From the NCBI GenBank assembly GCA_016213405.1, contig JACRAM010000088.1:1-64000 (forward strand): a DNA stretch of 64,000 nucleotides. Reading direction: 5' to 3'. Below are positions 16,407 to 52,364 of the stretch, one piece after another; position 1 is the first letter of the stretch; each line of letters starts with the position of its first letter. A program made the translations under genes and the position numbers. This DNA is from Bacteroidota bacterium. GTDB lineage: Bacteria > Bacteroidota > Bacteroidia > Palsa-948. The notes under the pieces are model-generated. The model ran no database searches, had not been told where the DNA came from, and worked only from the letters and a program-made list of their open reading frames with translations.

Positions 16407-17279
16407 ATGAAAAAATTTAAAATCATTGTTCTGGCGAAGCAAGTTCCCGATACAAGAAACGTGGGCAAAGACGCTATGAAAGCGGATGGAACTGTAAACA
16501 GAGCCGCATTGCCTGCCATCTTTAATCCGGAAGATTTGCACGCACTTGAACAGGCGCTCTCCATCAAGGATAAATTTCCAGGCAGCACAATTACTTTGCT
16601 CACGATGGGTCCTATCCGCGCGGTGGAAATTATTCGCGAAGGCTTTTACCGCGGAGCCGATGACGGAATTCTTCTTACAGACCGCGCTTTTGCCGGCTCT
16701 GATACGCTCGCTACTTCCTACGCGCTTGCCTGCACCATAAAAAAAATAAAAGAGTTTGATATTATTCTCTGCGGGCGACAAGCCATTGACGGTGACACAG
16801 CGCAAGTGGGACCTCAGGTTGCAGAAAAATTAGGCATTCCTCAAATCACGTATTCAGAAGAAATAATGTCTGCTTCATCAGAAAAAATTGTTGTGAAGCG
16901 AAGATTGGAGCGCGGTATTGAAATTGTTGAATGTTCTTTGCCCGTACTGATTACTGTGAATAGCTCAGCCCCCGTATGCAGACCGAGAAATGCAAAACTT
17001 CTGATGAAATACAAACACGCAAACACAATGAGCAAACGCCAGGAAAGCGTTGAAGATTATATGAGCGGAGGAAATGATTCATACCTCACAATAAAAGAAT
17101 GGAGCGTGAACGATATTGAATGTGACCGCGAGCAACTTGGAATTGGCGGCTCACCGACAAAAGTGAAAAAAGTTGACAACATTGTTTTTCAATCAAAAGA
17201 ATCAAAACGCATTGAAGATATGGATGAAGATATTAATGGATTGATGAAAGAACTAATCACAGCACATATTGTTGGATAA
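16407..17279 (+). CDS. etfB: Electron transfer flavoprotein subunit beta
   Basis: EtfB with EtfA carries electrons from acyl-CoA dehydrogenases to the quinone pool. The 290-residue protein begins KIIVLAKQVPDT, and the AMP-binding signature GRQAIDGDTAQVGPQVAEKLG is clear. It is longer than the roughly 250 residues of mitochondrial-type EtfB; the extra part is C-terminal. It is followed after 52 bases by etfA and then an acyl-CoA dehydrogenase gene, so the three probably form one functional unit. The 144-base stretch upstream holds no clear consensus promoter. Confidence 0.95.
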   Translation: MKKFKIIVLAKQVPDTRNVGKDAMKADGTVNRAALPAIFNPEDLHALEQALSIKDKFPGSTITLLTMGPIRAVEIIREGFYRGADDGILLTDRAFAGSDTLATSYALACTIKKIKEFDIILCGRQAIDGDTAQVGPQVAEKLGIPQITYSEEIMSASSEKIVVKRRLERGIEIVECSLPVLITVNSSAPVCRPRNAKLLMKYKHANTMSKRQESVEDYMSGGNDSYLTIKEWSVNDIECDREQLGIGGSPTKVKKVDNIVFQSKESKRIEDMDEDINGLMKELITAHIVG

Positions 17280-17331
17280 TAAAGACCACATCATTGTAAG
17301 AATTAATAAGTAGCTGCTAATATTATAAAAT

Positions 17332-18351
17332 ATGAATAACGTTTGTGTTTACTGCGAACTGGAAGAAGGAAAAATTTCTGAAGTAAGTTTTGAACTTCTC
17401 ACTAAAGGACGCAATCTTGCCGATCAATTGAAGTGTCAACTGGAAGCGCTTCTGATTGGTCATAATTTGGATGGTTTTGAAAAAGAAATTTTTCCTTACG
17501 GTGTGGATACACTTTACCTTGCTGATGATTCCCGTCTTGAGCCGTATTCTACTCTGCCTCACACAGAAATAACTGTCAGACTTTTCAGAGAACAAAAGCC
17601 ACAGATTGTGTTGATGGGAGCAACGTCTATCGGGCGAGATTTAGGTCCGCGTGTTTCCTCCGCACTCGGAAGCGGTCTCACTGCTGATTGCACTGAATTG
17701 GAGATTGGTGACCACGAAGAAAAAAAAGAAAAAAAAGTTTACAAAAATCTCCTCTATCAGATCCGTCCAGCTTTCGGAGGAAACATCATTGCGACCATCA
17801 TAAATCCAGATTGCCGTCCGCAAATGGCAACCGTTCGCGAAGGTGTGATGAAAAAAGAAATTTACAATCTCCGCCACACAGGAAAGATCGTTAAACTGGA
17901 TGTAAAAAAATATGTGGACGATGAATGTTTTATCGTAAAAATTCTTGAGCGGCACATTGAAAAATCAAAAGTCAATATTAAAAATTCATCCGTGATTGTT
18001 GCCGGTGGTTTTGGCGTTGGCTCCGCAGAAAACTTTAAGTTGCTTCATAACCTCGCTTCCATGCTTGGCGGAGAAGTGGGAGCTTCACGTGCGGCAGTGG
18101 ACGCAGGGTTTGCCGGACATGAACGGCAAATCGGACAAACAGGAATAACCGTTCGCCCGAAACTTTATGTCGCCTGCGGAATCTCGGGACAAATACAACA
18201 TCTTGCCGGCATGCAGGAATCCAGCATTATCATTTCCATTAACAACGATCCGAATGCTCCTATAAATAAAATTGCAAACTATGTGATTGCCGGGAAAGTC
18301 GAAACTGTAATTCCAAAAATGATCAGATACTATAAAGAAAATACAAAATAA
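17332..18351 (+). CDS. etfA: Electron transfer flavoprotein subunit alpha
   Basis: The 339-residue protein has an N-terminal alpha/beta domain and the FAD-binding C-terminal signature of EtfA. This includes RAAVDAGFAGHERQIGQTG, TVRPKLYVACGISGQIQHLAGM and NDPNAPINKIANYVI. It is the FAD-carrying partner of the upstream EtfB. Only 17 bases separate it from the acyl-CoA dehydrogenase gene. Confidence 0.96.
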   Translation: MNNVCVYCELEEGKISEVSFELLTKGRNLADQLKCQLEALLIGHNLDGFEKEIFPYGVDTLYLADDSRLEPYSTLPHTEITVRLFREQKPQIVLMGATSIGRDLGPRVSSALGSGLTADCTELEIGDHEEKKEKKVYKNLLYQIRPAFGGNIIATIINPDCRPQMATVREGVMKKEIYNLRHTGKIVKLDVKKYVDDECFIVKILERHIEKSKVNIKNSSVIVAGGFGVGSAENFKLLHNLASMLGGEVGASRAAVDAGFAGHERQIGQTGITVRPKLYVACGISGQIQHLAGMQESSIIISINNDPNAPINKIANYVIAGKVETVIPKMIRYYKENTK

Positions 18352-18368
18352 AACTAACGAATAGAAAA

Positions 18369-20075
18369 ATGCCAAACTTCTACACCGATAACGCTGACAT
18401 CAAATTTCACCTTGCACATCCGCTCATGCAGCGAATTGTCGCACTGAAAGAAAATAATTTCAAAGAGAAAGATGATTATGAATTTGCGCCTAAGGATTTT
18501 GAAGACGCGATGGACAGTTACAGCCAGATTCTTGAAATTATTGGAGAGATTTGCGGAGATATTATCGGTCCCAATGCAGAATCGGTTGACCACGATGGAC
18601 CTGTTTTGAAAAACGGAAGAGTTGAATATGCAAGAGGCACAACAGAAAATATTGAAGCCATCACCAAAGCAGGTTTGATGGGCATTGCTCTTCCCCGCAG
18701 ATTCGGTGGATTAAATTTTCCTATGATTCCTTATATCATGGCTGCCGATATTGTTTCACGAGCCGATGCAGGTTTTGTGAACATCTGGGGCTTGCAGGAT
18801 TGCGCGGAAACAATAAATGAATTTGGCTCTGAGGAACAGAAGCAGCGTTTCCTCACACGTGTTTGCAAAGGAGAAACAATGGCAATGGCGCTCACAGAAC
18901 CCGATGCCGGTTCTGATTTGCAGGCAGTGATGCTCAAAGCGCATTACGATGAACAAAAAAAATCATGGCTCTTGAATGGTGTGAAACGTTTCATCACCAA
19001 TGGCGATGGAGATATTTCTCTTGTGCTTGCCCGTTCGGAAGACAGAACACAGGATGCTCGCGGGTTATCCATGTTTATTTATGACAAGAACAGCGGGGGT
19101 GTTGCTGTAAGGCGAATAGAAAATAAATTGGGTATCAAAGGTTCTCCTACCTGCGAATTGGTTTTCAAAGATGCGCCTGCTGAAATCTGCGGAAACAGAA
19201 AATTCGGATTGATAAAATATGTGATGTCGCTGATGAATGGCGCTCGACTTGGAATTACTGCACAATCGGTGGGTCTGAGCGAAGCCGCTTACCGCGAAGC
19301 GCTCTCCTATGCAAAGAAAAGAATTCAGTTTGGCAAACCGATTATACAATTTCCTGCAGTGTATGAACTTCTTTCCCTGATGAAAGCAAAACTCACTGCT
19401 TCACGCTCTTTGCTTTACGAAACCGGACGCTTTGTAGATATTTACAAAACTCTCATTCATATTTCACAAGTGAGGGAATTAACCAAAGAAGAAAAAGATG
19501 AACTGAGAAAATATCAGAAGCTTGCCGACATTTTTACACCCCTTGCAAAAGGATTGACTTCAGAGTATTGTAACCAGATTGCGTATGACGCTTTGCAGAT
19601 TCATGGAGGTTCAGGTTTCATGAAAGATTATCCGATTGAACGGATTTACCGCGATGCGCGGATTACTTCCATATATGAAGGAACCACACAACTGCAGGTG
19701 GTGGCGGCAATTCGCGGAGTTACCGCAGGAGGATACCTTGCGCAGATTCAGGCATACGAAAAAGAACCCATCAAGCCGGAAACTGAATCGTATAGAAAAA
19801 TTTTAATTGAGATGACCGAAGAATACGAAGAATCAGAAAATAAAGTTGTTCTTACTGACAGCAATGAGTTCATAGATTTTCACGCACGCAGATTAGTTGA
19901 AATGGCAGGAAATATTATTATGGGTTATCTTTTGCTGGCAGATACGCAGCGCGATCACAACTACTGGAAAACACTTGAAGTATTTTTACGCATGGCTCGC
20001 TCACATAATAAATCCAACTCAATTCGTATTCTGCATTCTAACCTTAATGACATGGGAAAGTTTCGATATGAATAG
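18369..20075 (+). CDS. Acyl-CoA dehydrogenase, long form
   Basis: This FAD enzyme oxidises acyl-CoA to trans-2-enoyl-CoA and should pass electrons to the EtfBA encoded directly upstream. The FAD/substrate signature ALTEPDAGSDL is at about residue 176. The second family signature QIHGGSGFMKDYPIER-YRDARI is at about residues 415-437, and the catalytic-base region is SIYEGTTQLQ. At 568 residues it exceeds the usual 380. The extra C-terminal helical region (about 455-568) is common in larger bacterial acyl-CoA dehydrogenases. It may serve beta-oxidation of dicarboxylyl-CoA products of the phenylacetate pathway; that is inferred from context only. It converges on paaE with a 12-base gap. Confidence 0.93.
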   Translation: MPNFYTDNADIKFHLAHPLMQRIVALKENNFKEKDDYEFAPKDFEDAMDSYSQILEIIGEICGDIIGPNAESVDHDGPVLKNGRVEYARGTTENIEAITKAGLMGIALPRRFGGLNFPMIPYIMAADIVSRADAGFVNIWGLQDCAETINEFGSEEQKQRFLTRVCKGETMAMALTEPDAGSDLQAVMLKAHYDEQKKSWLLNGVKRFITNGDGDISLVLARSEDRTQDARGLSMFIYDKNSGGVAVRRIENKLGIKGSPTCELVFKDAPAEICGNRKFGLIKYVMSLMNGARLGITAQSVGLSEAAYREALSYAKKRIQFGKPIIQFPAVYELLSLMKAKLTASRSLLYETGRFVDIYKTLIHISQVRELTKEEKDELRKYQKLADIFTPLAKGLTSEYCNQIAYDALQIHGGSGFMKDYPIERIYRDARITSIYEGTTQLQVVAAIRGVTAGGYLAQIQAYEKEPIKPETESYRKILIEMTEEYEESENKVVLTDSNEFIDFHARRLVEMAGNIIMGYLLLADTQRDHNYWKTLEVFLRMARSHNKSNSIRILHSNLNDMGKFRYE

Positions 20076-20087
20076 TCTGTGTACGAC

Positions 20088-21152
20088 TTAAATATCGTAA
20101 TCCACCTTCACCACGGGCGTGAGCGGATGACTTTGACAGGTGAGAACGAATCCTTCGGCAACTTCAGAATCAGTGAGCGCGAAATTCTTGTTCATGTGAA
20201 CTTTCCCTTCCAGGATTTTTCCTCGGCACGTAGCGCACACAGCTCCTTTGCAGGCGAAAGGAGCGTCCACACCATTTTCAATCGCTGCGTCAAGAATTGA
20301 TTTTCCGTCAGATGAAAGCTTAAAAGTGGTTTCTATTCCGTATTGAGAAACAGTAACCTGAGATATTATTTTTTCCGAAGGAGAAATAACTTTATCAGGC
20401 GCGTCAACGGAGGAAGTAAAATACTCAATATGAATTCTTGCTTTGTCAATTTTCCTTTCTTCCAGCGTTTCGCGCACATTATCCATCATTGGTTTTGGAC
20501 CGCAGATAAAAAATTCATTGTCAGTTGACGGAATAATATGTTTATCAAAAAGAGCTTTTGCTTTTTCTTTGGAGATGATTCCTTTATAAAGTTCTTCAAC
20601 CTGTGTAGTGGGTTTGTCAAAAATATAATGCAACTTGAATCTAGAAGAATTTTTCTGCGCGAGTTCGTCTAATTGCTTTTTAAAAATAGTTGATTCTTCA
20701 TTCAGGTTTCCGTAAAATAAAATGAGAGAAGAATTTGGTTCGGCTTGAAGAACCGTTTTTATAATAGACAACATTGGAGTGATTCCGCTTCCGCCAGCAA
20801 ACAGAGAATATTTTTTTTTGTGTAAAGCATTCATCGGAGAATAAAAACCGCCCATCGGAGTCATCACTTCTATTTCATTTCCAACTTTCAGGTTATCGTT
20901 AACGAAGATTGAACCCTTTCCACCTTGCACTTTCTTCACAGCCACGCGCATTTCATTTTCAAGAGGAGAGCTGCAAACAGAATAACTTCTGCGGATTTCT
21001 TCTCCGGCAAGAAAAAGTTTCAGCGTGAGATATTGTCCCTGTATGAATTTATATTCTTCTTTCAAAGAAGCCGGAACGTCAAACGCAACAGAAACACAGT
21101 CTGCGGTTTCCTTTCGGATATCTGATACTTTAAGTTTGTGAAATTTTGTCAT
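20088..21152 (-). CDS. paaE: Phenylacetyl-CoA epoxidase reductase subunit PaaE
   Basis: PaaE passes electrons from NAD(P)H through FAD and a plant-type [2Fe-2S] cluster to the di-iron epoxidase PaaABC(D). The 354-residue protein has the FAD motif RSYSVCSSP (near residue 55), the nucleotide-binding GGSGITPMLSIIKTVL and CGPKPMM. The C-terminal ferredoxin domain has FACKGAVCATC and a final LTCQSHP cysteine. The architecture, with the [2Fe-2S] domain last, is that of PaaE/PaaK. It lies 7.5 kb from paaABCD and on the opposite strand, directly downstream of the hydrogenase-4-like cluster. Confidence 0.9.
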   Translation of the reverse strand: MTKFHKLKVSDIRKETADCVSVAFDVPASLKEEYKFIQGQYLTLKLFLAGEEIRRSYSVCSSPLENEMRVAVKKVQGGKGSIFVNDNLKVGNEIEVMTPMGGFYSPMNALHKKKYSLFAGGSGITPMLSIIKTVLQAEPNSSLILFYGNLNEESTIFKKQLDELAQKNSSRFKLHYIFDKPTTQVEELYKGIISKEKAKALFDKHIIPSTDNEFFICGPKPMMDNVRETLEERKIDKARIHIEYFTSSVDAPDKVISPSEKIISQVTVSQYGIETTFKLSSDGKSILDAAIENGVDAPFACKGAVCATCRGKILEGKVHMNKNFALTDSEVAEGFVLTCQSHPLTPVVKVDYDI

Positions 21153-21186: not shown

Positions 21187-21939
21187 TCACTTCCTTTTTC
21201 TAATCAATTCTAATACTCCGTTAATAAAGGTGAGAGGGTGTATTGGATTTCCCGGAATGTACAAATCAATTTTGTATTGGGTTAAAAAAATTCTGTTCAA
21301 TGCAGGGCTGTCTGCAAAAACTCCTCCGCTGATAGCGTCAGTTCCTGCTAGAATAATTATTTTAGGTTCAGGAGTAGCGTCATAACAAATCTGCAATGGT
21401 TCCGCCATATTTTCTGAGATAGGACCAGTAATTACAATTCCATCTGCATGGCGGGGCGAAGCGACAAACTCGATTCCGAATCTTCCCATATCAAAGTTCA
21501 CATTACTGCAGGCGTTGAGTTCTAATTCACAACTATTATCTCCACCGGCTGACACTTGCCGTAACTTGAGCGAACCACTGAAATATTTTGAGATTTCTTT
21601 TCGTATTAAATCAGGATTCAGAATGATATTTTTTTCTTCTCCTTCTTTTACAATTAATCCATCGCGAAAGTTCGTTGAAAGTTTGTAATCTTTTGTAAAT
21701 TTTATTTTGTCAGGAAAAGCAAAAGCACATTCCCCACAGAAAGTGCATTTTCCCAAATCAATGCTCACAGGATTTTTTGCGATAGAATTTGTAGGGCATA
21801 AATCAACTAATTTATCATCATCAACCTTTTCATTGCTGATTACAGGTCTGCCACGAAAAATTCCCGGAACTTCTGCTGTAGTTATATCGGGAATGAATTG
21901 TTTTCCTTGATGAATGAGTATTTTAAAATTATCAAGCAT
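21187..21939 (-). CDS. Degenerate HyfH-HyfI fusion: ferredoxin domain plus NuoB/hydrogenase small-subunit-like domain
   Basis: The C-terminal half (about residues 125-250) matches the hydrogenase-4 / NuoB-like small subunit, with FVASPRHADGIVITGP, ATPEPKIIILAGT and YKIDLYIPG. Its [4Fe-4S] ligands are mostly lost. The CxxC becomes D134-N-S-C137, the third cysteine is D201 (AGTDA) and the fourth is N231 (IPGNP). The N-terminal half is a HyfH/NuoI-like ferredoxin domain. It keeps C48 (LCP) and C65/C68/C71 (CTFCGEC), enough for one cluster, but lacks the other four ligands. The gene is last in a six-gene set with the order of hyfBCEFG-I. It most likely belongs to an energy-converting hydrogenase-related (Ehr) complex rather than a true hydrogenase. 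Confidence 0.82.
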   Translation of the reverse strand: MLDNFKILIHQGKQFIPDITTAEVPGIFRGRPVISNEKVDDDKLVDLCPTNSIAKNPVSIDLGKCTFCGECAFAFPDKIKFTKDYKLSTNFRDGLIVKEGEEKNIILNPDLIRKEISKYFSGSLKLRQVSAGGDNSCELELNACSNVNFDMGRFGIEFVASPRHADGIVITGPISENMAEPLQICYDATPEPKIIILAGTDAISGGVFADSPALNRIFLTQYKIDLYIPGNPIHPLTFINGVLELIRKRK

Positions 21940-21951
21940 AGTTTTTCATTA

Positions 21952-23448
21952 TTACAAATCGTGCCCGCAGTAACTCAAATTAAAACTTTTATTAACAACA
22001 GGAAAATCTGAAATTTCGTTATTGCGTACTGCTAATGCGAGCGCCAGCCAATTGTGAAATGACGGATCTTTAATTTTGTAATGCACCAGTTCTCCTTTTT
22101 CATCCGTAACTGCACAATGGCAGATTTCTCCTCTCCATCCTTCCACTAATGAAATTGCAAATGAATTTAGTGAAGGCGAAGACAAATTCTTTCTCTCCTT
22201 ATTTTCTTCGGGAATATTTTTTAGTAATTTTTTGATATACCCGATGGACTGCTTAATTTCTTCCTCGCGAATTTGTACGCGTGAATAAACATCTCCGTGA
22301 TTTTTTATAACCGGCTGGTGATTCAATGAAGAATAAAAATCGTGAGGATGGGTAGAACGAATATCTCTCACAATGGCACTCATCTTCGCTGACATTCCAA
22401 CTGTTCCAATGGAAGATGCCTGTTGATGTGTAACAGCACCTGTTCGTTCAAAGCGGGCTAAAACAGTTGAAAGTGAAAAGGACTCTTCGCACATCTCTAT
22501 AAAATCTCTTTCAAACTCATCAAAAAGTTTGTAAAGCTTATCATTTAATTTTTTGCTGAACGGAAAATTATTTCTACCCGGACGAATCAATCCTTTAGCA
22601 AGGCGGTTTCCACACCAAATCTGGAAATAATTTATCACAGGAGTACGTAATCTTCCAAAGACAACACTGCCGAGTTGGTAAGCGATATCGGTGCAAAGCG
22701 CACTCAAATCCCCAGTGTGAATAGCAATTCTTTCCAACTCAAGTGCAAGCGTACGAGTGAACTGCAAATCTTTATCTGCACTGAAATTGCAGAGAGATTC
22801 CCATAGATTTACGAAGGCAGTTGTATGCCCAGCAACTGTATCGCCAGAGATGTTTTCTGCAAGAGTTACACGCTGCAAAAGTTTCTTATTCTCAAGGAAA
22901 AGATTCTCAATTCCTCTATGCTGAAATCCTAATTGAATTTCCAGATGAAGAATTTGCTCCCCATTACAGATGAAACGGAAATGTCCCGGTTCAATCACCC
23001 CTGCATGGATGGGACCAACTCCTACTTCATGCAATTCTTCGCTGTCAATTTTATAAAATGGATAATTTGAAATAGTGTTTTCTTTATTGGTTCTGTCAAA
23101 AGAAAAACGAACTGGTTTAAGCCATGTATGATTTAAATATTTTATTCCAAAGTTTTCATGCATTTCTCTTTCAAATTTTTCAAAAGCAAAGTGATGATGA
23201 GTGAATGAAAGCAGTGTCTCATTCATATTTATATGAGATGAAGAAACATAAATACTTCCATCGTTATCATTCGCAATACAACAAATCAACTTTATTTTCC
23301 CATCGGAATGAAATCCATAGTAGTTCACACAATGATTTTGAGATTCTTTCAAGAGGGAAGTATTGTGCTCTAAAAATATTTCATACTCCAGAACCGGTAT
23401 GGATGCCAGCGGAATGCACTGATTATTTTTGATATCAATATAATTCAT
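21952..23448 (-). CDS. HyfG-like (NuoCD-type) large subunit lacking [NiFe] cysteines
   Basis: The 498-residue protein has a NuoC-like N-terminal domain (about 1-115) and a NuoD/hydrogenase large-subunit domain (about 135-498). Conserved family features remain: VGVGPIHAGVIEPGHFRF, LGFQHRGIE and SVEGWRGE-like SLVEGWRGEICHC. The cysteine pairs that hold [NiFe] are absent. The N-terminal CxxC position reads ISGDTVAGH (about 200-208), and the C-terminal DPCxxC reads DPSFHNW (461-467). It therefore cannot bind a classical [NiFe] centre. That loss is the hallmark of Ehr-type complexes. The start overlaps the upstream gene's stop by one base. Confidence 0.85.
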   Translation of the reverse strand: MNYIDIKNNQCIPLASIPVLEYEIFLEHNTSLLKESQNHCVNYYGFHSDGKIKLICCIANDNDGSIYVSSSHINMNETLLSFTHHHFAFEKFEREMHENFGIKYLNHTWLKPVRFSFDRTNKENTISNYPFYKIDSEELHEVGVGPIHAGVIEPGHFRFICNGEQILHLEIQLGFQHRGIENLFLENKKLLQRVTLAENISGDTVAGHTTAFVNLWESLCNFSADKDLQFTRTLALELERIAIHTGDLSALCTDIAYQLGSVVFGRLRTPVINYFQIWCGNRLAKGLIRPGRNNFPFSKKLNDKLYKLFDEFERDFIEMCEESFSLSTVLARFERTGAVTHQQASSIGTVGMSAKMSAIVRDIRSTHPHDFYSSLNHQPVIKNHGDVYSRVQIREEEIKQSIGYIKKLLKNIPEENKERKNLSSPSLNSFAISLVEGWRGEICHCAVTDEKGELVHYKIKDPSFHNWLALALAVRNNEISDFPVVNKSFNLSYCGHDL

Positions 23449-24872
23449 TACGGCAGATTTATTATTGCTTCATTGATTAATTCCATCATCTGAACAGGCG
23501 GATTAAATCCCAGATAGATTACCAGTCCCATCAAAATGAATTGAGAAAATGATTCATATCCATTTATTTTTTCTATGCCTTCTTCCATAAAATCTTTTGC
23601 AGGAGTGAACAGGAGTTTGAAAATATTTTTTCCGAATGCCCAGATAATGACTACCAGTAAAATTAAAATCAATATCAAAACAAACACATAATGTCCTTCA
23701 AACAAGGAACGAAAAATCAAAAACTCACTCACAAAAAGTCCAGATGGCGGCATGGCAGTGGAGCAAATAAATCCAAGCAGCAGAACCATCGCACCGGAAA
23801 AATTGTGCTTGAAATAATTTCCAGTATCATAAATATTTTTGCTTTTGTAAATTCTGTAAACCTGTCCGATCTGGAAAAACATTCCCGACTTAGCAAACGA
23901 ATGTAATACAGTGTGAAGAATTGCCGCATAATAACCGATTCCTCCCGCTGCGAGTCCGAGCATCACGATTCCCAAATGTTCAACGCTGGAGTACGCGAGC
24001 ATTCGTTTTATATTTTTTACCTTGAGCATGTAAACTGCTGCGACAAAAACTGAAAGTGTACCTGAAATGATAAGAATATTACTTGCCCATGCGTGAAGAG
24101 ATGTGTGCACAATCACTTCGTAAAAACGGAATATACCTATGAAACCAACATTCATCAGTGCGCTGGAAAAAAGTGCACCTGCGGGGGAAGGAACTTTGTC
24201 TTTCGCGTCAATGCCTGCGTTATACATCGGTACAAGCCCCGCCTTGACAGTGAATCCCGTGAAAGCAAAAATAAATGCGAGCCGCATCCAAAATTCATTG
24301 AGTGATGCAGCGTGTGCCATCAGTGATGCAAAGGATAAATCGGTAGTGCCGCTTTGCCGCAGTGCAATACTTAGAAAAAGTATGCCGATAAAAACCAGCG
24401 TGATACTAATTGAACAAACAAAAATATATTTCCATGTTCCCTCGAGCGAGCGAATGTTTCTGCGGTGATATACCAACGCAGACGCAGACAGTGTAGTAAG
24501 TTCGATGAACACCCACGTAACCGCTATGTGAGAAGAAAGATACGCAGCGCTCATAGCCATGATTAAAATTATCATCGCGGAAAAATAAATTGCACGCTGT
24601 CTCGGGATTTCTATGTGCTTTGTGAAATAAATATAGCTATGATAAATCGCTGGAATGCTGATGATGTTCAGTGTGACGAGAAGAATGATGGACAAGGCAT
24701 CCGTCCTGAATAATCCTAACTCCTCATGATTGAGATGGGTGTAGGCAAAAACCGTAAGTGCGCATTGAAGAATAAGAAACAGCGCAAGCAAAAAATAATT
24801 TACTCCACGATGCCGGTTGAAAAAAATTATTCCACTTAGAACACCCGATGTAATTAAATATGCCGTTATCAT
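23448..24872 (-). CDS. HyfF-like proton-translocating membrane subunit (NuoN/NuoM-like)
   Basis: The 474-residue, strongly hydrophobic protein has about 13-14 transmembrane helices of the Mrp-antiporter / complex I type. The helix-5 glutamate is kept in TWVFIELTTLSA, and the helix-7 lysine in FTVKAGLVPMYNA. SVEHLGIVMLGLAAGG and HSFAKSGMFFQIGQVY are further family signatures. Among hydrogenase-4 subunits it fits HyfF by position and sequence style. It is tightly packed in the operon, one base after the next upstream gene. Confidence 0.85.
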   Translation of the reverse strand: MITAYLITSGVLSGIIFFNRHRGVNYFLLALFLILQCALTVFAYTHLNHEELGLFRTDALSIILLVTLNIISIPAIYHSYIYFTKHIEIPRQRAIYFSAMIILIMAMSAAYLSSHIAVTWVFIELTTLSASALVYHRRNIRSLEGTWKYIFVCSISITLVFIGILFLSIALRQSGTTDLSFASLMAHAASLNEFWMRLAFIFAFTGFTVKAGLVPMYNAGIDAKDKVPSPAGALFSSALMNVGFIGIFRFYEVIVHTSLHAWASNILIISGTLSVFVAAVYMLKVKNIKRMLAYSSVEHLGIVMLGLAAGGIGYYAAILHTVLHSFAKSGMFFQIGQVYRIYKSKNIYDTGNYFKHNFSGAMVLLLGFICSTAMPPSGLFVSEFLIFRSLFEGHYVFVLILILILLVVIIWAFGKNIFKLLFTPAKDFMEEGIEKINGYESFSQFILMGLVIYLGFNPPVQMMELINEAIINLP

Positions 24873-24873
24873 A

Positions 24874-25503
24874 TTAATCTCGCAGCGCTTTTAATTGTTC
24901 AACATCCACATCTTTTATTACATCTCCGATTTTATTCACAAAAATCCCAAGAAGGAGAATGCTCACAAAAATATCGAGCAGAATTCCAGTATTCACCAGC
25001 ATAGGCATTTCGCTTCCCACAGCGAGTGATAGAATGAACACACCGTTTTCTAAAACAAGATATCCCATCACGTGCGTTATAATTTTTCTGCGCGTAACAA
25101 TAATGTAAAGTCCCGTAAACAATGTTGAGAGCGCTACAACAAAAAATATTTTATTGATACTATTTCCCTCAATAGCAGAAGAAAGAATGTACGAAAGCAC
25201 AATAATGCCTGTAATGATTATCAGGGAGAAAAAATTATGAAGATATGGTTCTGCTTCACGAGTGATTCTATTTCGCTTCATGATATAATTCAAAAACCAG
25301 GGAACGGCAATAGCTTTAAAAATGATTGTCTCAAGCAGGATGAAAATTAAATTAACAATGTTGATTTCAATTAGGTTGATAAACGCTATTCCGAAAAGTA
25401 GAATTCCCTGAAAGGCGAGTATTTTCACATAAGTAGATAATCGTTTTAAAATACCTATATAGGGAAGCGTAATGATGAAAGTTATAAGTAAAACATTTGT
25501 CAT
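24874..25503 (-). CDS. HyfE-like membrane subunit (NuoK-like)
   Basis: The 209-residue protein has about six transmembrane helices and resembles HyfE, whose C-terminal half is NuoK-like. GYLVLENGVFILSLAVG keeps the membrane-embedded glutamate typical of NuoK. LLETIIFKAIAVPWFLN carries another buried charged pair. One base separates it from the HyfF-like gene, and one base from the HyfC-like gene upstream. Confidence 0.8.
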   Translation of the reverse strand: MTNVLLITFIITLPYIGILKRLSTYVKILAFQGILLFGIAFINLIEINIVNLIFILLETIIFKAIAVPWFLNYIMKRNRITREAEPYLHNFFSLIIITGIIVLSYILSSAIEGNSINKIFFVVALSTLFTGLYIIVTRRKIITHVMGYLVLENGVFILSLAVGSEMPMLVNTGILLDIFVSILLLGIFVNKIGDVIKDVDVEQLKALRD

Positions 25504-25504
25504 T

Positions 25505-26410
25505 TCATATGAGATTATTTTTTATTAACAGAATCCCAATAAAAATCAGAAGTGCTACAGACGACAACGTAAAAATGAACTGCGGATTATGATTCATTCT
25601 GAAACGAGCCATGAATGATTCTATCAGGCCGATAATAACAGCGAAAAATAGTTGCACAGCAATAAATATTATTATGTCAACATAAACCGAAAGACCTCCG
25701 AAGAAAAAGTTTGCGATGAGCGCCCCGTACATTGCAAATTTTAAATTGCCCGTATAAAAAATCAATCCAAGATCAAATCCGCTGTTGTCGAGAATCATCA
25801 CTTCGTGAATCATGGTGAGTTCAAGATGTGTTTTCGGGTCATCCACGGGCATTCGGCTGTTTTCAATCATCGCGAACATTACCAGCAGGTAAGCCGCCAG
25901 CGCACCGATTGCATAAGAGATGTATGAACCGAAATGAAGTGAAGCAAAGAAATCGCTGAAAGAAGTATGTCCCGTCATCAGCGCAAAACAACCGATGAGA
26001 ATGAAAAATGCCGGCTCCGCGAGCATGGAATACAATGCCTCGCGGCTAGCTCCCATTCCTGAAAAACTGCTACCGGTGTCGAGAGAAGAAATTATCATGA
26101 AAAATTTTCCTAAGGCGAGAACATAAGCGAAAAATAAAAAGTCGCCATCAAAAGAAATAATGCCTTTGTGACTGCCGAAAGGAATCACAAGAATTGCAGA
26201 GAGAACTGAAGCAAAATAAATGCTGGGAGCGATTTGAAAAATAATGCTGGAAGTTTTGCTATACACAGCTCCTTTTTTCCATAACCTGAAAATATCTTTC
26301 ATCGGCTGGAAAATTCCCGGACCTTTTCTGCCCGAAACAATGCTTTTGGTTCGGATGATGATTCCTGAAAAAATCAAACTGACAAAAAGTATCATTACAA
26401 AACAAATCAT
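25505..26410 (-). CDS. HyfC-like membrane subunit (NuoH-like)
   Basis: The 301-residue protein has about eight transmembrane segments. It carries the group 4 hydrogenase NuoH-like signature SRMPVDDPKTHLELTMIHE followed by MILDNSG, with its acidic residues intact. GRKGPGIFQPMKDIFRLWKK matches the N-terminal amphipathic segment. In complex I this subunit links the peripheral arm to the antiporter-like subunits. It starts four bases after the HyfB-like stop. Confidence 0.88.
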   Translation of the reverse strand: MICFVMILFVSLIFSGIIIRTKSIVSGRKGPGIFQPMKDIFRLWKKGAVYSKTSSIIFQIAPSIYFASVLSAILVIPFGSHKGIISFDGDFLFFAYVLALGKFFMIISSLDTGSSFSGMGASREALYSMLAEPAFFILIGCFALMTGHTSFSDFFASLHFGSYISYAIGALAAYLLVMFAMIENSRMPVDDPKTHLELTMIHEVMILDNSGFDLGLIFYTGNLKFAMYGALIANFFFGGLSVYVDIIIFIAVQLFFAVIIGLIESFMARFRMNHNPQFIFTLSSVALLIFIGILLIKNNLI

Positions 26411-26414
26411 ATCA

Positions 26415-28448
26415 CTAGTTTTTTAAGAATGACAATAATGAATTAAATGCATCTGAAATGAAAGGGAAAAAAATCACAAGCAAAATAAAAATTACTCCGT
26501 ACAAAATATAATGTTGTGCATTTCCGCTCTGAAGAAAAGAAAATCTTTCAAGAAATTTTTTCAGCAAAAAGATAATTCTGTCAATAAATTTTTCTTCCAG
26601 TTTATCCTGAGGATGCGTTTCGTAAGAAGCAGTATGCGGAAAAATTCCTACCACTTCCGTTTCCTTTTTATGAAGCGATATAATCGGCTTAACTAATTTT
26701 CTGTAAGAACGGATAAACGAATTTGCCGTGTATTGCATTTTACCAGCATCTCCCACATAGCCGCAACCCCAGGTAGGTGAAATAGTTTGCCGTTTGTTCA
26801 GAGTGATTCTGCTTCTTAAAAAGAAAATTAAGCCGCAGAGTAGTATAAATCCTGCTGAACAGATTCCTACAATGGTCATTATGTTTAGAGTGCCGGGAAA
26901 AATATCAGATTCAATCGGTGAATTTATTTTCGCAGTGAACATCATTACAGGCGCAGAAAGCAATCGCACAAAAAATTTTGGATAAATTCCTATTGCTAAA
27001 ATCAATGCCAACACCATATACATAGGAATAAGTTTTCCGGTTGAAGCTTCCTGTGGTTCGTGATTAAGTGGGTGGCGGGGAGTTCCGAGAAAAACTATTC
27101 CAAATGCTTTTGTGAAACATAAAACTGCCAACCCACCAATAAGAACTAATCCAAGAATGGAAAAAATCATTGATAAAATTGAAACGGAATAATTTCCAGC
27201 GAGCCCTTTGAACAATCCCGAGTATATTAAAAATTCAGAAATGAAACCGTTGAAGGGCGGAAGCCCGCAGATAGAAAGCGCAGCTACTAAAAATAAAATC
27301 GATGTATGAGGCATTCGTTTGATAAGTCCACCCAATTGTTCCACATTCATTGTGTGTGTGGCTTGATAAACATTTCCAGCACTGTAAAATAAAAGTGATT
27401 TGAAGAGAGAATGATTCAGCACGTGAAGCAATCCTCCTGCAAATCCGAGAGAGGCGAGCAAATGATTTCCCGTTCCAACACCAATACATCCAAGCCCGAT
27501 TCCTATTCCGATGATACCAATATTCTCAATGCTGTGATAAGCCAGCAATTTTTTCAAATTGTGCTGAATGATGGCAAGTATCACTCCGTAAATTCCTGAA
27601 ATCACCGAGATGAAAAGAATGAAATATCCCACTACAGTATAATCAGTGTGAATGAGAAAAAGCATTCTCAAAATCCCGTAGATGCCGATTTTGATAATGA
27701 TGCCTGACATCACGCCCGAAATATGCGAAGGAGCAGCGGGATGCGCATACGGAAGCCAGGTGTGAAACGGAACAAATCCTGCCTTGAATGCAAACCCGAT
27801 GAAGAAACATAAAAATAAAATTATTCCAACCAACGTAGGTTTCTCCAATGAAAAACTTGTGATGGAAGAAAAATCATACGAGTTAGTTTGTGAAGCCACC
27901 CAGATAAATGCGATGGTGAGAAAAAAAACTCCGATGTGTGACTGAATGAGAAAATTAATTCCAGCTTTGAGCGTTTGTTTTTTTGTATGTTCAAAAATTA
28001 TCAACACAAAAGAAGCAAGTGTCATGATTTCCCATATGAGGAGAAACATTAAACTATTTTGAACACAGCAAACAGACAAAAGCGAAACGTGCATCAGTAT
28101 GTATGAAATCCAATGCAGAGAAGTATTTGCCTTTTGTTCTTCATACGGTTTCATATAGAAAATTCCGTAGAGAGCGCCAGTGATAGCAGTGAAATTGATA
28201 AGGAGAATAAACCATGCGGAGAGCGCGTCAATGCTGATATGAATGTTTCCGAAAAAATAACTACTCTGAAAGTCAGCTTCTATCGAATAGCTACTCAAAA
28301 CAACCACAGCTTCATATGAAGATAAAATAGCAATCAGTAAAACAATTAAAAAGTTGACAATGGATTTTAGTTTGGGAAGAGAAAAAGGAACGATGATTAT
28401 TCCTACAATAGAAATTAAAATCGTTGCAAGAAGAATCCTCTCATTCAT
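26415..28448 (-). CDS. HyfB-like proton-translocating membrane subunit (NuoL-like)
   Basis: The 677-residue protein is the first gene of the cluster. It has about 14 antiporter-type helices plus a C-terminal extension. Functional residues of proton-channel subunits are visible: the helix-5 glutamate in LLIWEIMTLASFVL, lysines in GFAFKAGFVPFHTWLPYAHPA and SGIIIKIGIYG, and histidines in HVLNHSLFKSLLFYSAG. SWTWGCGY-like TISPTWGCGYVGDAGKMQYT near residue 560 is the C-terminal signature of HyfB proteins. Ion translocation should therefore be possible in the membrane arm. Confidence 0.88.
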   Translation of the reverse strand: MNERILLATILISIVGIIIVPFSLPKLKSIVNFLIVLLIAILSSYEAVVVLSSYSIEADFQSSYFFGNIHISIDALSAWFILLINFTAITGALYGIFYMKPYEEQKANTSLHWISYILMHVSLLSVCCVQNSLMFLLIWEIMTLASFVLIIFEHTKKQTLKAGINFLIQSHIGVFFLTIAFIWVASQTNSYDFSSITSFSLEKPTLVGIILFLCFFIGFAFKAGFVPFHTWLPYAHPAAPSHISGVMSGIIIKIGIYGILRMLFLIHTDYTVVGYFILFISVISGIYGVILAIIQHNLKKLLAYHSIENIGIIGIGIGLGCIGVGTGNHLLASLGFAGGLLHVLNHSLFKSLLFYSAGNVYQATHTMNVEQLGGLIKRMPHTSILFLVAALSICGLPPFNGFISEFLIYSGLFKGLAGNYSVSILSMIFSILGLVLIGGLAVLCFTKAFGIVFLGTPRHPLNHEPQEASTGKLIPMYMVLALILAIGIYPKFFVRLLSAPVMMFTAKINSPIESDIFPGTLNIMTIVGICSAGFILLCGLIFFLRSRITLNKRQTISPTWGCGYVGDAGKMQYTANSFIRSYRKLVKPIISLHKKETEVVGIFPHTASYETHPQDKLEEKFIDRIIFLLKKFLERFSFLQSGNAQHYILYGVIFILLVIFFPFISDAFNSLLSFLKN

Positions 28449-28598: not shown

Positions 28599-28606
28599 TA
28601 TCTTTA
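28599..28606 (+). promoter_or_regulatory. Putative -7 promoter element for paaABCD
   Basis: TATCTTTA matches seven of eight positions of TAnnTTTG (last base A). If it is used, transcription starts after the ATG at 28606, which favours the ATG at 28630 as the paaA start. Confidence 0.35.
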
Positions 28607-28629
28607 TGTTCGCATTAAAATTATTAAAA

Positions 28630-29568
28630 ATGGACGCTTCACAATTTGAAAATAATTTCGAAAGCAAACTTTCGCGCAATGAAAACATTGAGCCCAAGGA
28701 TTGGATGCCTGAGATTTACCGCAAGCACCTCATCCGTCAGGTTTCCCAGCATGCTCATTCTGAAATTGTGGGCATGTTACCCGAAGGAAACTGGATTACG
28801 CGTGCTCCGAGTTTGCGTGCAAAAATGGTTCTCACTGCAAAAGTTCAGGATGAAGGAGGACACGGATTGTATCTGTACACAGCTGCTGAGTCGCTAAATA
28901 TTTCCCGCGAAGAACTTCTTAATCAACTTCACACGGGCAAAGCAAAATATTCTTCCATCTTTAATTATCCTACTTTATCGTGGGCAGATATTGGCGCAAT
29001 CGGATGGTTGGTGGATGGCGCTGCGATTATGAATCAGGTGATGTTACAAAGAACTTCTTACGGCCCGTATGCGCGGGCTATGGTTCGCATTTGCAAGGAA
29101 GAAAGTTTTCATCAGCGACAGGGATATGAAATTATGTGCAAGCTTTCTGCAGGAACAAAAGAGCAAAAAGAAATGGCGCAGGATGCAGTTAACCGTTTCT
29201 GGTGGCCTACGCTGATGATGTTTGGCCCGCCCGATGCTGAGTCATCTAATTCTGAAAATGCAATCAAGTGGAAAATAAAACGCGAGAGCAACGATCAGTT
29301 ACGGCAGCGTTTCGTGAATCAAACTGTTCCACAGGCGGATATTATCGGATTGAAAATTCCTGACAAAAATTTAAAATGGAATGATACAAAACAAGGGTAT
29401 GATTTCTCTGAACCCGACTGGAAAGAATTTCAGAATGTGATTCACGGAAACGGTCCCTGCAATAAAGAAAGATTAGGCGCACGCGTACAAGCCCACGAAA
29501 ACGGAAGATGGGTTCGTGAAGCAGCTATGGCGTTTGCAGAAAAGAAAAAACAAAAAGTAGCAGCGTAA
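28630..29568 (+). CDS. paaA: Phenylacetyl-CoA 1,2-epoxidase catalytic subunit PaaA
   Basis: PaaA is the di-iron oxygenase subunit that epoxidises the aromatic ring of phenylacetyl-CoA. The 312-residue protein has the four-helix ferritin-like core. Iron ligands are visible in [14 protein letters not shown] and in [35 protein letters not shown] and [16 protein letters not shown] are strongly conserved in PaaA. An upstream ATG at 28606 adds eight residues but overlaps the putative promoter, so [10 protein letters not shown] is taken as the start. It is first in the order paaABCD. Confidence 0.95.
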
Positions 29569-29592
29569 GAAAATTCAAAAGTCAAAAGAAAA

Positions 29593-29889
29593 ATGGCAAA
29601 TACAAAAGACAGCCAAGGACAACTTTGGGAGGTTTTCGTGCAAAAAAAACCAGGACTCCCCTATGTTCACTGCGGAAACCTTCACGCATTCGACAAGGAA
29701 ATGGCTTTGCAAAATGCACGCGATGTATATACGCGCAGAAGCGAAGGCACTGCTATATGGGTTGTTCCCTCTTCAGCAATTGTTGCAAGTTCTCCAGAAG
29801 ATATCGGTCCTTTCTTTGAACCTGCAAATGATAAAGTGTTTCGCCATCCTACTTTTTATAAACTGCCGGAAGAAATTAAACATATGTAA
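29593..29889 (+). CDS. paaB: Phenylacetyl-CoA epoxidase structural subunit PaaB
   Basis: PaaB is a small subunit needed for assembly of the epoxidase. The 98-residue length and the motifs LWEVFVQKKPG, VHCGNLHAFDKEMALQNARDVYTRR and GTAIWVVPSSAI match the family. It starts 24 bases after paaA. A hairpin-forming repeat of about 60 bases separates it from paaC. Confidence 0.94.
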   Translation: MANTKDSQGQLWEVFVQKKPGLPYVHCGNLHAFDKEMALQNARDVYTRRSEGTAIWVVPSSAIVASSPEDIGPFFEPANDKVFRHPTFYKLPEEIKHM

Positions 29890-29893
29890 TGTG

Positions 29894-29953
29894 TTTGTCA
29901 TGTTGAGCGAAGCGAAACATCTATAGATTCTTCACTTCGTTCAGAATGACAAA
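29894..29953. repeat. Inverted repeat family F (TTTGTCATTCTGA type) between paaB and paaC
   Basis: TTTGTCATGTTGAGCGAAG and its imperfect reverse complement ending CAGAATGACAAA form a long hairpin within the paa operon. The in-frame ATG at 29946 lies inside it. A half copy occurs at 62878-62906. This is a widespread Bacteroidota repeat type. Confidence 0.75.
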
Positions 29954-29963
29954 AGAAAAGAAC

Positions 29964-30722
29964 ATGACAACACAAGAAGCACTTTTCAATTATTTACTAA
30001 GACTTGGAGACACAAGTTTGATTCTCGCCCAACGCAATGCTGAATGGTGCGGGCACGGTCCGTTTCTTGAAGAAGATTTAGCGCTTACAAATATTTCCCT
30101 TGACTTGCTCGGGCAGGCAAATTCAATTCTGCTTTACGCAGGAACAGTGGAATGCAAAGGAAGAAGCGAAGATGATCTGGCGTTTCATCGCACAGAAAGA
30201 GAATATTACAATACGCTCTTGACTGAACAGTCGAACGGAGATTATGCAAAAACAATTCTCCGTCAGTTTTTGTGTGATGCATTTGATTTTTATTTTTATT
30301 CTGAACTGGTAAAAAGCAAGGATGAAACACTTTCTGCAATTGCTGCTAAGTCAATAAAAGAAATCACCTATCACTTACGCCACACCTCTTCATGGGTTGA
30401 ACGATTAGGTGATGGCACGGAAGAAAGCCACACACGAATGCAAAACGCGCTTGATGAACTCTGGAGATTCACCGGGGAAATGTTTGAGATGAATGAAGTG
30501 GATTCTGTTTTGATTAAAGAAGGAATCGCAGTTGATTTGAAATCCGTTCAGCCAAAATGGGAAAGCAAAGTGAAAGAAATTCTGGAGCGTGCTACGTTGA
30601 AAATACCTGCGAATGCTTTTATGCAGAGAGGAAGTCGTGATGCAAAACATACGGAGCATTTAGGTTTCATTCTTGCTGAGATGCAATCGTTGCCTCGGTC
30701 ACTTCCTGATGCAAAATGGTAA
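29964..30722 (+). CDS. paaC: Phenylacetyl-CoA epoxidase structural subunit PaaC
   Basis: PaaC is the ferritin-like partner of PaaA in the epoxidase core. The 252-residue protein starts MTTQEALFNYLLRLGDTSLILAQRNAEWCGHGP, which is typical of PaaC, and ITYHLRHTSSWVERLGDGTEESH is conserved. The reading frame extends to an ATG at 29946, but those bases belong to a repeat. The ATG at 29964 follows a purine-rich stretch and gives the expected N-terminus. Confidence 0.93.
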   Translation: MTTQEALFNYLLRLGDTSLILAQRNAEWCGHGPFLEEDLALTNISLDLLGQANSILLYAGTVECKGRSEDDLAFHRTEREYYNTLLTEQSNGDYAKTILRQFLCDAFDFYFYSELVKSKDETLSAIAAKSIKEITYHLRHTSSWVERLGDGTEESHTRMQNALDELWRFTGEMFEMNEVDSVLIKEGIAVDLKSVQPKWESKVKEILERATLKIPANAFMQRGSRDAKHTEHLGFILAEMQSLPRSLPDAKW

Positions 30723-30723
30723 T

Positions 30724-30757
30724 AGCCCCCTCCTAACCTCCCCCATTGGGGGAGGAA
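30724..30757 (+). repeat. Palindromic repeat family A between paaC and paaD
   Basis: AGCCCCCTCCTAACC is followed by the hairpin CTCCCCC-ATT-GGGGGAG, immediately after the paaC stop. It fills the 39-base gap before paaD. Confidence 0.88.
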
Positions 30758-30761
30758 TTAT

Positions 30762-31280
30762 ATGAAAACACAAAAAGAAATACTTGTAATTCTCTCCGAA
30801 ATTCCTGATCCGGAAATTCCCGTAATCAATATTAAAGAACTAGGAGTTCTTCGTGATGTGATTGTGAATGGAAATGAAGTAGAGATTATCATCACTCCAA
30901 CGTACTCAGGTTGTCCTGCGATGAAGCAGATTCAAGATGACATTATTTCTGCTATGAAAAAGAACGGAATTGAAAACACGAAAGTAAAAATGGTTTATCA
31001 TCCGGCTTGGACTACCGATTGGATTACTGATGAAGCAAAAGAGAAACTTAAAAAATATGGCATTGCTCCTCCAGAAAAATGCATTAAGGATTTAGGATTA
31101 AGGAATAAGGATTTTTCAATCCCAAATCCCAAATCCTTAATCCTTAATAGGAGTATTGCCTGTCCTCAGTGCGGCTCTGAGAATACTGAAATGGTTTCAC
31201 AGTTCGGTTCAACGGCTTGCAAAGCTCTTTATAAATGTTTGGATTGCAAAGAGTCGTTTGATTATTTCAAGTGCCACTGA
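30762..31280 (+). CDS. paaD: Phenylacetyl-CoA epoxidase maturation/iron-sulfur subunit PaaD, with repeat-derived linker
   Basis: PaaD has an N-terminal MIP18/DUF59 domain (about residues 1-105, with IPDPEIPVINIKELGVLRDV and TPTYSGCPAM). It also has a C-terminal four-cysteine zinc-ribbon-like tail (CPQCGSENTEMVSQFGSTACKA and CLDCKESF). It is thought to help assemble the epoxidase metal centre. Residues of about 108-130 (KDLGLRNKDFSIPNPKSL) are the translation of a family B repeat at 31085-31150, inserted in frame between the two domains. The protein (172 residues) is slightly longer than usual for this reason. Confidence 0.93.
   Translation: MKTQKEILVILSEIPDPEIPVINIKELGVLRDVIVNGNEVEIIITPTYSGCPAMKQIQDDIISAMKKNGIENTKVKMVYHPAWTTDWITDEAKEKLKKYGIAPPEKCIKDLGLRNKDFSIPNPKSLILNRSIACPQCGSENTEMVSQFGSTACKALYKCLDCKESFDYFKCH
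31085..31150. repeat. Repeat family B, in frame in paaD
   Basis: An inverted repeat of TTAGGATTAAGGAATAAGGA and AAATCCTTAATCCTTAAT lies between the MIP18 domain and the cysteine motif of PaaD. It is closely related to the copies at 15079-15141 and 37741-37804. Confidence 0.85.
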
Positions 31281-50992: not shown

Positions 50993-51519
50993 TATGTTTC
51001 CTCCTCCTGATTTACTTCTTTGTTCTTTTTGTAAGCACCTAATATTTTCTTTACACCCGAAGGCTTTACAAATTGATGCACGTCATCATTCACCATGATG
51101 ATGGGAGCTAATCCGCAGGCACCAAAGCAGCGGCCTACATCCAGCGTGAAAAGTTTATCGGGAGTAGTTTCGCCAATCTCAATGTTTAATTGCTGTTTGA
51201 GTGCTGTAACTATTTCATTTGCGCCTTGTACATAACAGGCCGTTCCGAGACAAACACGGATTAAATATTTGCCGCGGGGTTTAAGAGAGAAGAAAGAATA
51301 AAAAGTAATAACACCGTATACTTTATGCAACGGTTCGTTCAGAATTTCTGAAATCTTAAGAATGGCTTCCTGAGGAATATATCCAAACAAGCTTTGAGTT
51401 GCCTGAAGTACAGGAATCAATGCACCAGGTTTTGTTTTGAAGGATGATATAATCTCTACTAATCTTTCAAGCAAAACAGCTTCATCATCACCGCAGGAGC
51501 ATTTTTCAACTTTTGCCAT
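50992..51519 (-). CDS. Formate dehydrogenase gamma subunit (NuoE/HndA-like)
   Basis: The 175-residue protein has the thioredoxin-like [2Fe-2S] motifs of NuoE, VCLGTACYVQGANEIV and DVGRCFGACGLAP. The helical N-terminus includes IPVLQATQSLFGYIPQEAI. It completes the alpha-beta-gamma set of a soluble NAD-dependent formate dehydrogenase. Its stop overlaps the next start by one base, and its start lies 14 bases inside the end of fdhD. Confidence 0.93.
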   Translation of the reverse strand: MAKVEKCSCGDDEAVLLERLVEIISSFKTKPGALIPVLQATQSLFGYIPQEAILKISEILNEPLHKVYGVITFYSFFSLKPRGKYLIRVCLGTACYVQGANEIVTALKQQLNIEIGETTPDKLFTLDVGRCFGACGLAPIIMVNDDVHQFVKPSGVKKILGAYKKNKEVNQEEET

Positions 51520-52363
51520 CTGAAATTAATCTGTGTTGATTAAATTCCTTTTCATGGTCAGATTGGAATTCTATATTATCTATCCGACTATATGCAGTAA
51601 ATTTATTATCCCTGCAAAAAGCCATCAGCGTAATTCCCAGTTGCTCAGCCAAATCAACAGCCAGTGATGATGGTGCAGAAACAGCAGACAGAAACGGAAT
51701 ATCCGCGGAAAAACATTTTGTCACTATTTCATACGATATTCTTCCGCTGACGGTCATGCAGCGTGCTTTTCGTAATTTTTTCTCAAGTATCAAACAACCG
51801 ATTGCTTTATCCACTGCATTGTGTCTGCCAATATCTTCCTGAATGGCGAGCAATTCTCCTTCAAGTGTAAATACTGCGCATCCATGCGAACCACCCGATG
51901 CTTTGAATGTATTTTGATTTGAATTCATTTGCTCAAACATTTTATCTACTGTTTCAGGTTTGAGTTTTTCAGTTTGAATAATTTTTTGTTCCTGCCCGGC
52001 AATCTCATCCAAATCGGTTTTACCGCAAATTCCGCAGGAAGAAACCGACATGATATTTCGCACCGATTCAAATCCTTTTCCAATCTTATCTAGAGGAATT
52101 ACAACATCTATCCATTTAATAAAACCCGAATTATTTTTTTCTTTTATAGAAATAACAGGATTGAATTGTAAATCTGTATATACATTTTCAGAAAATAAAA
52201 GTCCGCGCACTAATTCTTCCTCGCTTCCGGGAGTCCGCATGGTAATGGTATAGGGTGAACCATTAATTGTAATTTTCAGCAATTCTTCTACCGCAAGTGC
52301 GTCTTCTACAGGAAGAAATTTCCCTTTACAAAATTTTCTGCCTTTATAGAGTGCGGTGCTCAT
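51506..52363 (-). CDS. fdhD: Formate dehydrogenase sulfurtransferase FdhD
   Basis: FdhD carries sulfur from the cysteine desulfurase to the Mo/W-pterin cofactor, which formate dehydrogenase needs for activity. The 285-residue protein has the loop SVSSCGICGKTDL with the paired active cysteines. ASGGSHGCAVFTLEGELLAIQEDIGRHNAVDK and SGRISYEIVTKCF are FdhD signatures. It lies one base from fhs and overlaps the gamma subunit gene. Confidence 0.95.
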   Translation of the reverse strand: MSTALYKGRKFCKGKFLPVEDALAVEELLKITINGSPYTITMRTPGSEEELVRGLLFSENVYTDLQFNPVISIKEKNNSGFIKWIDVVIPLDKIGKGFESVRNIMSVSSCGICGKTDLDEIAGQEQKIIQTEKLKPETVDKMFEQMNSNQNTFKASGGSHGCAVFTLEGELLAIQEDIGRHNAVDKAIGCLILEKKLRKARCMTVSGRISYEIVTKCFSADIPFLSAVSAPSSLAVDLAEQLGITLMAFCRDNKFTAYSRIDNIEFQSDHEKEFNQHRLISDGKS

Positions 52364-52364
52364 T

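Follow-up and report, generated by a model that had tools for sequence, protein, structure and literature searches.

Energy-converting hydrogenase-related (Ehr) complexes combine a large subunit resembling that of group 4 [NiFe] hydrogenases, from which both metal-binding CxxC motifs are missing, with antiporter-like and NuoH-like membrane subunits. The Ehr family and its missing [NiFe] ligands are already known, and the reaction of these complexes is treated as an open question in the recent literature (PMC10284858, PMC12342949). All Ehr proposals that we found presuppose an electron-transfer arm. We identified an Ehr operon in which this arm appears to be interrupted, at positions 21187-28448 (minus strand) of a 64,000-nucleotide stretch of a Bacteroidota genome (hereafter the window; assembly GCA_016213405.1, contig JACRAM010000088.1). 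Its small subunit has lost the ligands of the proximal [4Fe-4S] cluster, called N2 in complex I, which would be expected to supply the [NiFe] site with electrons, together with those of one ferredoxin cluster. Loss of N2 in an Ehr is apparently new, with priority uncertain: no published report of it was found in a literature search that left out key subscription papers (Coppi 2005; Marreiros 2013).

Six adjoining, tightly packed open reading frames (ORFs) make up this hydrogenase-4-like relative of complex I, and Pfam or NCBIfam profile matches confirm the identity of each of the six subunits. A sequence-only reading, made earlier from the DNA letters, had recognized a six-gene hydrogenase-4/complex I-like complex in the order hyfB-C-E-F-G-I. 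The ORFs and profiles agree with both claims, but that reading overlooked a HyfH/NuoI-HyfI/NuoB fusion in gene I; with the fusion counted, the order becomes B-C-E-F-G-(H+I). The Variovorax Ehr has the entire order B-C-E-F-G-I in common with the window. Escherichia coli Hyc and Hyf (group 4a) share the subunit plan, the ion-path residues and an E-P-G-H loop. In contrast to them, the window complex lacks [NiFe] ligands, N2 ligands, a separate HyfH and a D subunit, its operon contains no HycH/HycI maturation genes, and its large subunit has no cleavable C-terminal extension. Complex I (Nuo) has a homologous arm (NuoB, C/D and I) and homologous membrane subunits. Unlike complex I, the window complex lacks the tandem-cysteine N2 site, has Gly where the quinone-site Tyr would be, and has neither an NADH module within its operon nor NuoE, NuoF or NuoG adjoining it.

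The Ehr small subunit (gene I, 21187..21939, minus strand, 250 amino acids) consists of a half-ferredoxin (NuoI/HyfH-like) fused to a NuoB/HyfI-like domain (Pfam Oxidored_q6, E-value 3e-19; TIGR01971 NuoI, 1e-5). Fold comparison ranks MbhJ (6cfw_J) at the top, followed by HycG (7z0t/7z0s). Alignment to MbhJ, HycG, HyfI and Ehr cousins places D134, D201 and N231 at three of the four proximal cysteine positions, such that the C-x-x-C, G-x-C and P-G-C-P ligand motifs of MbhJ/HycG/HyfI become D134-x-x-C137, G-T-D201 and P-G-N231-P. The lost CxxC reads D134-N-S-C137 (21529..21540, minus strand), the third ligand falls within GTDAISGG rather than GACxxSGG (D201; 21337..21339, minus strand), and the fourth within PGNPIHP rather than PGCPPHP (N231; 21247..21249, minus strand). 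The four-cysteine proximal site of Hyf/Hyc and of complex I is thus absent from this subunit.

These replacements are themselves conserved. We compared 95 aligned N2-less rows, nearly all from Bacteroidota; since the rows were drawn from two collections, some contigs are counted twice. Both D134 and D201 occur in all 95 and N231 in 94 (Tyr once), while position 137 is Cys in 90 and Asn or Ser in the other five. Conservation of three positions with drift at the fourth is not the pattern expected of a [4Fe-4S] cluster. Sequencing or assembly mistakes at these positions were considered and rejected, as many assemblies, contributing 95 aligned sequences, show the same residues. All four proximal cysteines are found in 10 of 10 Ehr cousins from the same phylum (L003-L011, L111). 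The window thus departs from a trait seen in these cousins and in the Rhizobium-type Ehrs described below, although a proximal cluster is apparently not a published defining feature of the family. N2-keeping relatives otherwise resemble the window in the order of large and small subunits, the NuoI-NuoB fusion, the lack of [NiFe] cysteines and a C-terminal NKSF(N/D)LSYxGxDL signature. They differ in having four proximal cysteines and the conserved ferredoxin cysteines that were checked, whereas members of the window clade read D, C, D, N at the proximal positions and have a single ferredoxin cluster.

In 2[4Fe-4S] ferredoxins, one cluster, which corresponds to N6b of complex I, is jointly bound by the CP cysteine of motif 1 and the CxxCxxC cysteines of motif 2. 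The sole complete [4Fe-4S] site of the window subunit, identified by alignment, comprises C48 (followed by Pro), C65, C68 and C71 (21727..21798, minus strand). The second ferredoxin cluster has lost its ligands throughout the window clade, except that two relatives keep its CP cysteine alone. The sequence-only reading was right about the missing [NiFe] site and overlooked these two further losses (the proximal one at D134, D201 and N231). With the proximal cluster and one ferredoxin cluster gone, the need for some other drive, or for a channel or antiporter role, is far more pressing than for ordinary Ehrs.

In a tree built with the ligand columns removed, the N2-less clade of Bacteroidota is monophyletic (support 98/95); its sister (L003) keeps N2, as do the surrounding cousins. 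Outgroup Ehrs from other phyla were taken from plasmid records, and a Caballeronia locus (L177) was left out for want of a usable large/small pair. The plasmid-borne Ehrs of Allomeiothermus silvanus and Mycobacterium branderi carry T, D, E, S and N, D, D, A, respectively, at the proximal ligand positions and keep precisely the single ferredoxin cluster of the window clade. Loss of N2 requires three changes on the tree, and a single origin, with the N2-less rows forced together, is rejected (approximately unbiased (AU) test, p = 0.00076). From these alignments, N2 appears to have been lost independently in Ehrs of other phyla.

The polar residues at the vacated ligand positions raise the question of whether a mononuclear metal (for example Ca2+, Zn2+ or Fe2+), bound by D134, C/N/S137, D201 and N231, replaced the proximal cluster in a structural or catalytic role. 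At three of the former ligand positions, a particular residue with an O or N donor is essentially fixed, and the two other N2-less lineages also have an acidic residue at ligands 3 and 2. However, position 137 varies, ligand 4 is Ala in M. branderi and Ser in A. silvanus, and the structure model has low confidence around residues 136-145. Because the polar residues may merely fill an empty pocket by hydrogen bonding, we consider such a metal site improbable.

Another set of Ehrs, from Rhizobium, Azospirillum, Methylovirgula, Burkholderia/Paraburkholderia, Cupriavidus, Methylocalor and Rhodococcus, keeps N2 and has no ferredoxin domain, with a small subunit of approximately 170-180 amino acids (read from ORFs for Cupriavidus and Paraburkholderia). 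As N2 has been lost in some Ehrs and the ferredoxin domain is absent from the Rhizobium type, no redox centre is common to the sampled Ehrs. The sampled lineages do share the fold, the membrane module and a polar cavity. This cavity has a distinctive signature, SGD near the first CxxC site and NKSF..SYxGxD at the end, from which M. branderi deviates. Loci L171 (R. johnstonii 3841 pRL11), L170, L178, L180 and L181 are of this Rhizobium type.

The large subunit (gene G, 21952..23448, minus strand, 498 amino acids) joins a NuoC-like N-terminus to a NuoD/HyfG-like domain (Pfam Complex1_49kDa, 5e-31). Solved relatives of the large and small subunits, by sequence and fold, are formate hydrogenlyase (FHL), Mbh and complex I, and the best structural match of the large subunit is HycE of FHL (7z0s_E). 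Alignment to HyfG and the Azospirillum lipoferum FHL places S201, T204, S492 and G495 at the four [NiFe] cysteine positions. At the first site, S201-G-D203-T204 (22837..22848, minus strand) replaces C-G-I-C, with NISGDTVAGH opposite RVCGICxxxH of HyfG. At the second, S492-Y-C-G495 (21964..21975, minus strand) replaces C-Y-S-C, with SFNLSYCGHDL opposite SLDPCYSCTDR of HyfG at the extreme C-terminus, where the window subunit stops. The group 4 hydrogenase motifs RxCGxCxxxH and DPCxxCxxR/H are therefore both missing. In a tree, the subunit falls within the Ehr clade with support of 100/100, apart from HyfG, the A. lipoferum FHL and NuoD, and a profile search of the window's genome found no hydrogenase of Pfam accession PF00374.

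These results bear out the earlier view that the large subunit has no [NiFe] cysteines, that the complex is not a hydrogenase and that Ehr complexes are the appropriate comparison, for which an alignment and a tree had been suggested as checks. ISGDTVAGH does replace the first CxxC, as had been proposed. The second proposed replacement, DPSFHNW, is not the C-terminal metal motif, since the counterpart of DPCxxC by alignment is SFNLSYCGHDL. Intact metal ligands elsewhere in the subunit, which would have overturned the earlier view, were looked for and none was found: the sole nearby cysteine, C494, is Ala or Ser in other Ehrs, so the conclusion that [NiFe] ligands are lacking stands. We also observed that Q258, Q276, W278, N281 and R289, within residues 258-289 of the large subunit (22582-22677, minus strand), are fixed in the N2-less clade and variable in N2-keeping cousins. 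These residues possibly face the vacated cluster site.

The membrane module comprises a hyfB-like antiporter subunit (26415..28448, 677 amino acids; NCBIfam HyfB, 1e-152), a hyfC/NuoH-like subunit (25505..26410, 301 amino acids; Pfam NADHdh, 2e-36), a hyfE/NuoK-like subunit (24874..25503, 209 amino acids; NCBIfam HyfE, 2.5e-18) and a hyfF-like antiporter subunit (23448..24872, 474 amino acids; NCBIfam HyfF, 6e-65), all encoded on the minus strand. The ion-path residues E140, K222, K253, H346 and E405 of subunit B are invariant in 64 sequences. Across approximately 65 relatives, the same holds for E124, E132, E183, D190, E197, E203, D208 and E264 of subunit C, for E58 and E152 (in LENG) of subunit E, and for E124, K210, K289, H320, K328 and E383 of subunit F. 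Of these, E140, K222, K253, H346 and E405 of subunit B, E124, K210, H320, K328 and E383 of subunit F, and E124, E132, E183, D190, E197, E203 and E264 of subunit C are identical in HyfB, HyfF and HyfC, respectively. The membrane motifs with buried Glu and Lys that the sequence-only reading had listed were all found.

Between species pairs of the N2-less clade, nonsynonymous differences (pN, 0.08-0.13) are far fewer than synonymous ones (pS, 0.63-0.88), with Jukes-Cantor dN/dS of approximately 0.05-0.07 where computable. The operon is under strong purifying selection, which preserves its ion-pumping parts as well as the residues that couple the cavity to the membrane. One paper assumed the Geobacter Ehr to be non-functional (PMC13194489), and a stepwise loss of redox centres is what a vestigial hydrogenase relic might display. 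Such a relic is contradicted by the purifying selection: with pN far below pS the operon is not decaying, and a pseudogene reading is ruled out by the same values. Moreover, the genes are full-length, the ion-path residues are essentially invariant in approximately 65 genomes, and the replacement residues are themselves fixed, which makes a non-functional relic extremely unlikely.

Judging from the missing ligands, the remaining cluster is left without a relay partner on either side, and the canonical route from donor through an Fe-S chain to the cavity therefore cannot work; relay distances in FHL are below 14 Å (PMC9474812). That a cluster adjacent to the active site was lost in several phyla and under purifying selection speaks against electron flow to the cavity as the reason these complexes are kept. 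As the most likely working mode we propose, with confidence somewhat short of an even chance, that the N2-less Ehr may be a secondary, ion-gradient-driven translocator that works without the usual electron flow. Ion gradients would drive H+ (and/or Na+) through the half-channels of HyfB and HyfF, with the peripheral arm acting as a gate on this translocation. The single [4Fe-4S] cluster would be structural or redox-sensing and stand outside any catalytic chain. A possible model for this working mode is the Mrp Na+/H+ antiporter, which is built from the same antiporter subunits and carries out no redox reaction. The window complex is no member of the Mrp family, having NuoH-, NuoC/D- and NuoB-like subunits and encoding B, C, E, F, G and I rather than an MrpA-G set.

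More generally, we give a little less than even odds to a complex I-superfamily machine that moves ions without electron transfer through its arm, with redox chemistry repeatedly discarded in Ehrs and the cavity and pump kept. If this is true, the conformational drive of the complex I superfamily can run on something other than electrons, and the N2-less Ehr would offer a naturally occurring control, ‘uncoupled from redox’, for studies of how coupling works in complex I.

Several observations weigh against a gradient-driven translocator. First, C48, C65, C68 and C71 are invariant in all 105 aligned rows, N2-less and N2-keeping alike. Second, the acidic coupling residues of subunit C are invariant, as are E198, G202, D203, H208, N486, K487, Y493 and D497 in the former [NiFe] cavity. 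On this sequence evidence, conservation of cluster, coupling and cavity exceeds the needs of a plain antiporter, and there may be a role for a ligand bound in the cavity or for unconventional chemistry. Third, an electron donor encoded elsewhere in the genome is possible. Finally, A. silvanus and M. branderi are each represented by one long-branch sequence, so ‘at least two’ losses of N2 is a safer count than ‘three’.

The same conservation would suit a shortened redox pump, in which a soluble donor passes electrons through the single N6b-type cluster directly to a quinone or other acceptor that sits inside or close to the emptied N2/[NiFe] cavity. The two complex I operons of the genome, which presumably imply a quinone chain, are also consistent with this scheme. 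Without N2, however, the distance from cluster to cavity would be beyond normal tunnelling, as inferred from complex I and FHL geometry (PMC9474812), and no donor gene is conserved nearby. Nor could the route operate across the whole family, as the Rhizobium type has no ferredoxin cluster fused to its small subunit. We regard such a pump as possible but rather unlikely.

A scan of the GTDB species collection recovered 322 relatives, of which the best 80 were kept as loci. These 80 are nearly all from Bacteroidota, spread over several orders, with one record titled Marinimicrobia, and include the cultured Niastella vici, Flavihumibacter profundi and Chryseolinea serpens. All but one of their small-subunit rows carry the D/x/D/N signature (the exception ends in Tyr). 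Of 395 genomes sampled from the window's class, 15 gave a strong match, and in 14 of these the Ehr is N2-less. Most loci (L023-L101) encode an additional antiporter-like subunit of approximately 670 amino acids upstream of B, giving three in total, as in complex I, and 41 loci have the plain order of this subunit followed by B-C-E-F-G-I. The window's genus is without it. No conserved neighbour or electron-donor gene was detected: apart from the additional antiporter-like subunit, no family is common to more than 9 of the 80 neighbourhoods.

The absence of a conserved neighbour bears on the proposal that Ehr complexes work with formate dehydrogenase (FDH). An FDH-Ehr complex has been proposed for Riflemargulisbacteria and Saganbacteria (PMC6349859), and the sequence-only reading had linked the window operon to formate or phenylacetate. 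The window does contain an NAD-type FDH operon, 18 kb from the Ehr operon, and the Ehr operon is flanked by paa genes. However, FDH was matched in 7 of the 15 genomes with an Ehr and in 7 of the 28 without one, and PaaA in 10 of 15 and 23 of 28. Co-occurrence is weak for FDH, and the phenylacetate genes show no association either. FDH is thus missing from eight and PaaA from five of the 15 Ehr-bearing genomes, and the suggested link is not supported. FDH and phenylacetate genes are not obligate Ehr partners. Without N2, moreover, FDH could not feed the cavity, and a respiratory complex of Ehr with FDH, or one linked to phenylacetate, is very unlikely.

The immediate neighbours of the operon are paaE on the same strand (20088..21152, minus strand; TIGR02160, 3e-119) and the divergent paaABCD (28606..31280, plus strand), neither of which is part of the complex. 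Across species, paaE adjoins the Ehr operon in two others of the window's genus and nowhere else. Farther along, paaZ lies at 43274-45400 (minus strand), and the FDH operon, FdhA (911 amino acids)-NuoF-NuoE-FdhD, lies at 46395-52363 (minus strand). It is followed by a gene for formate-tetrahydrofolate ligase, the whole stretch covering 46395-54044 on the minus strand. The Ehr is one of several complex I-like machines in the window's genome, where contigs C9, C20 and C125 carry two further complex I-type gene sets (NuoD and NuoL/M/N-like). Convergent with paaE, the region 16407-20075 (plus strand) encodes the beta and alpha subunits of ETF together with an acyl-CoA dehydrogenase that is extended at its C-terminus (Pfam accession PF12186).

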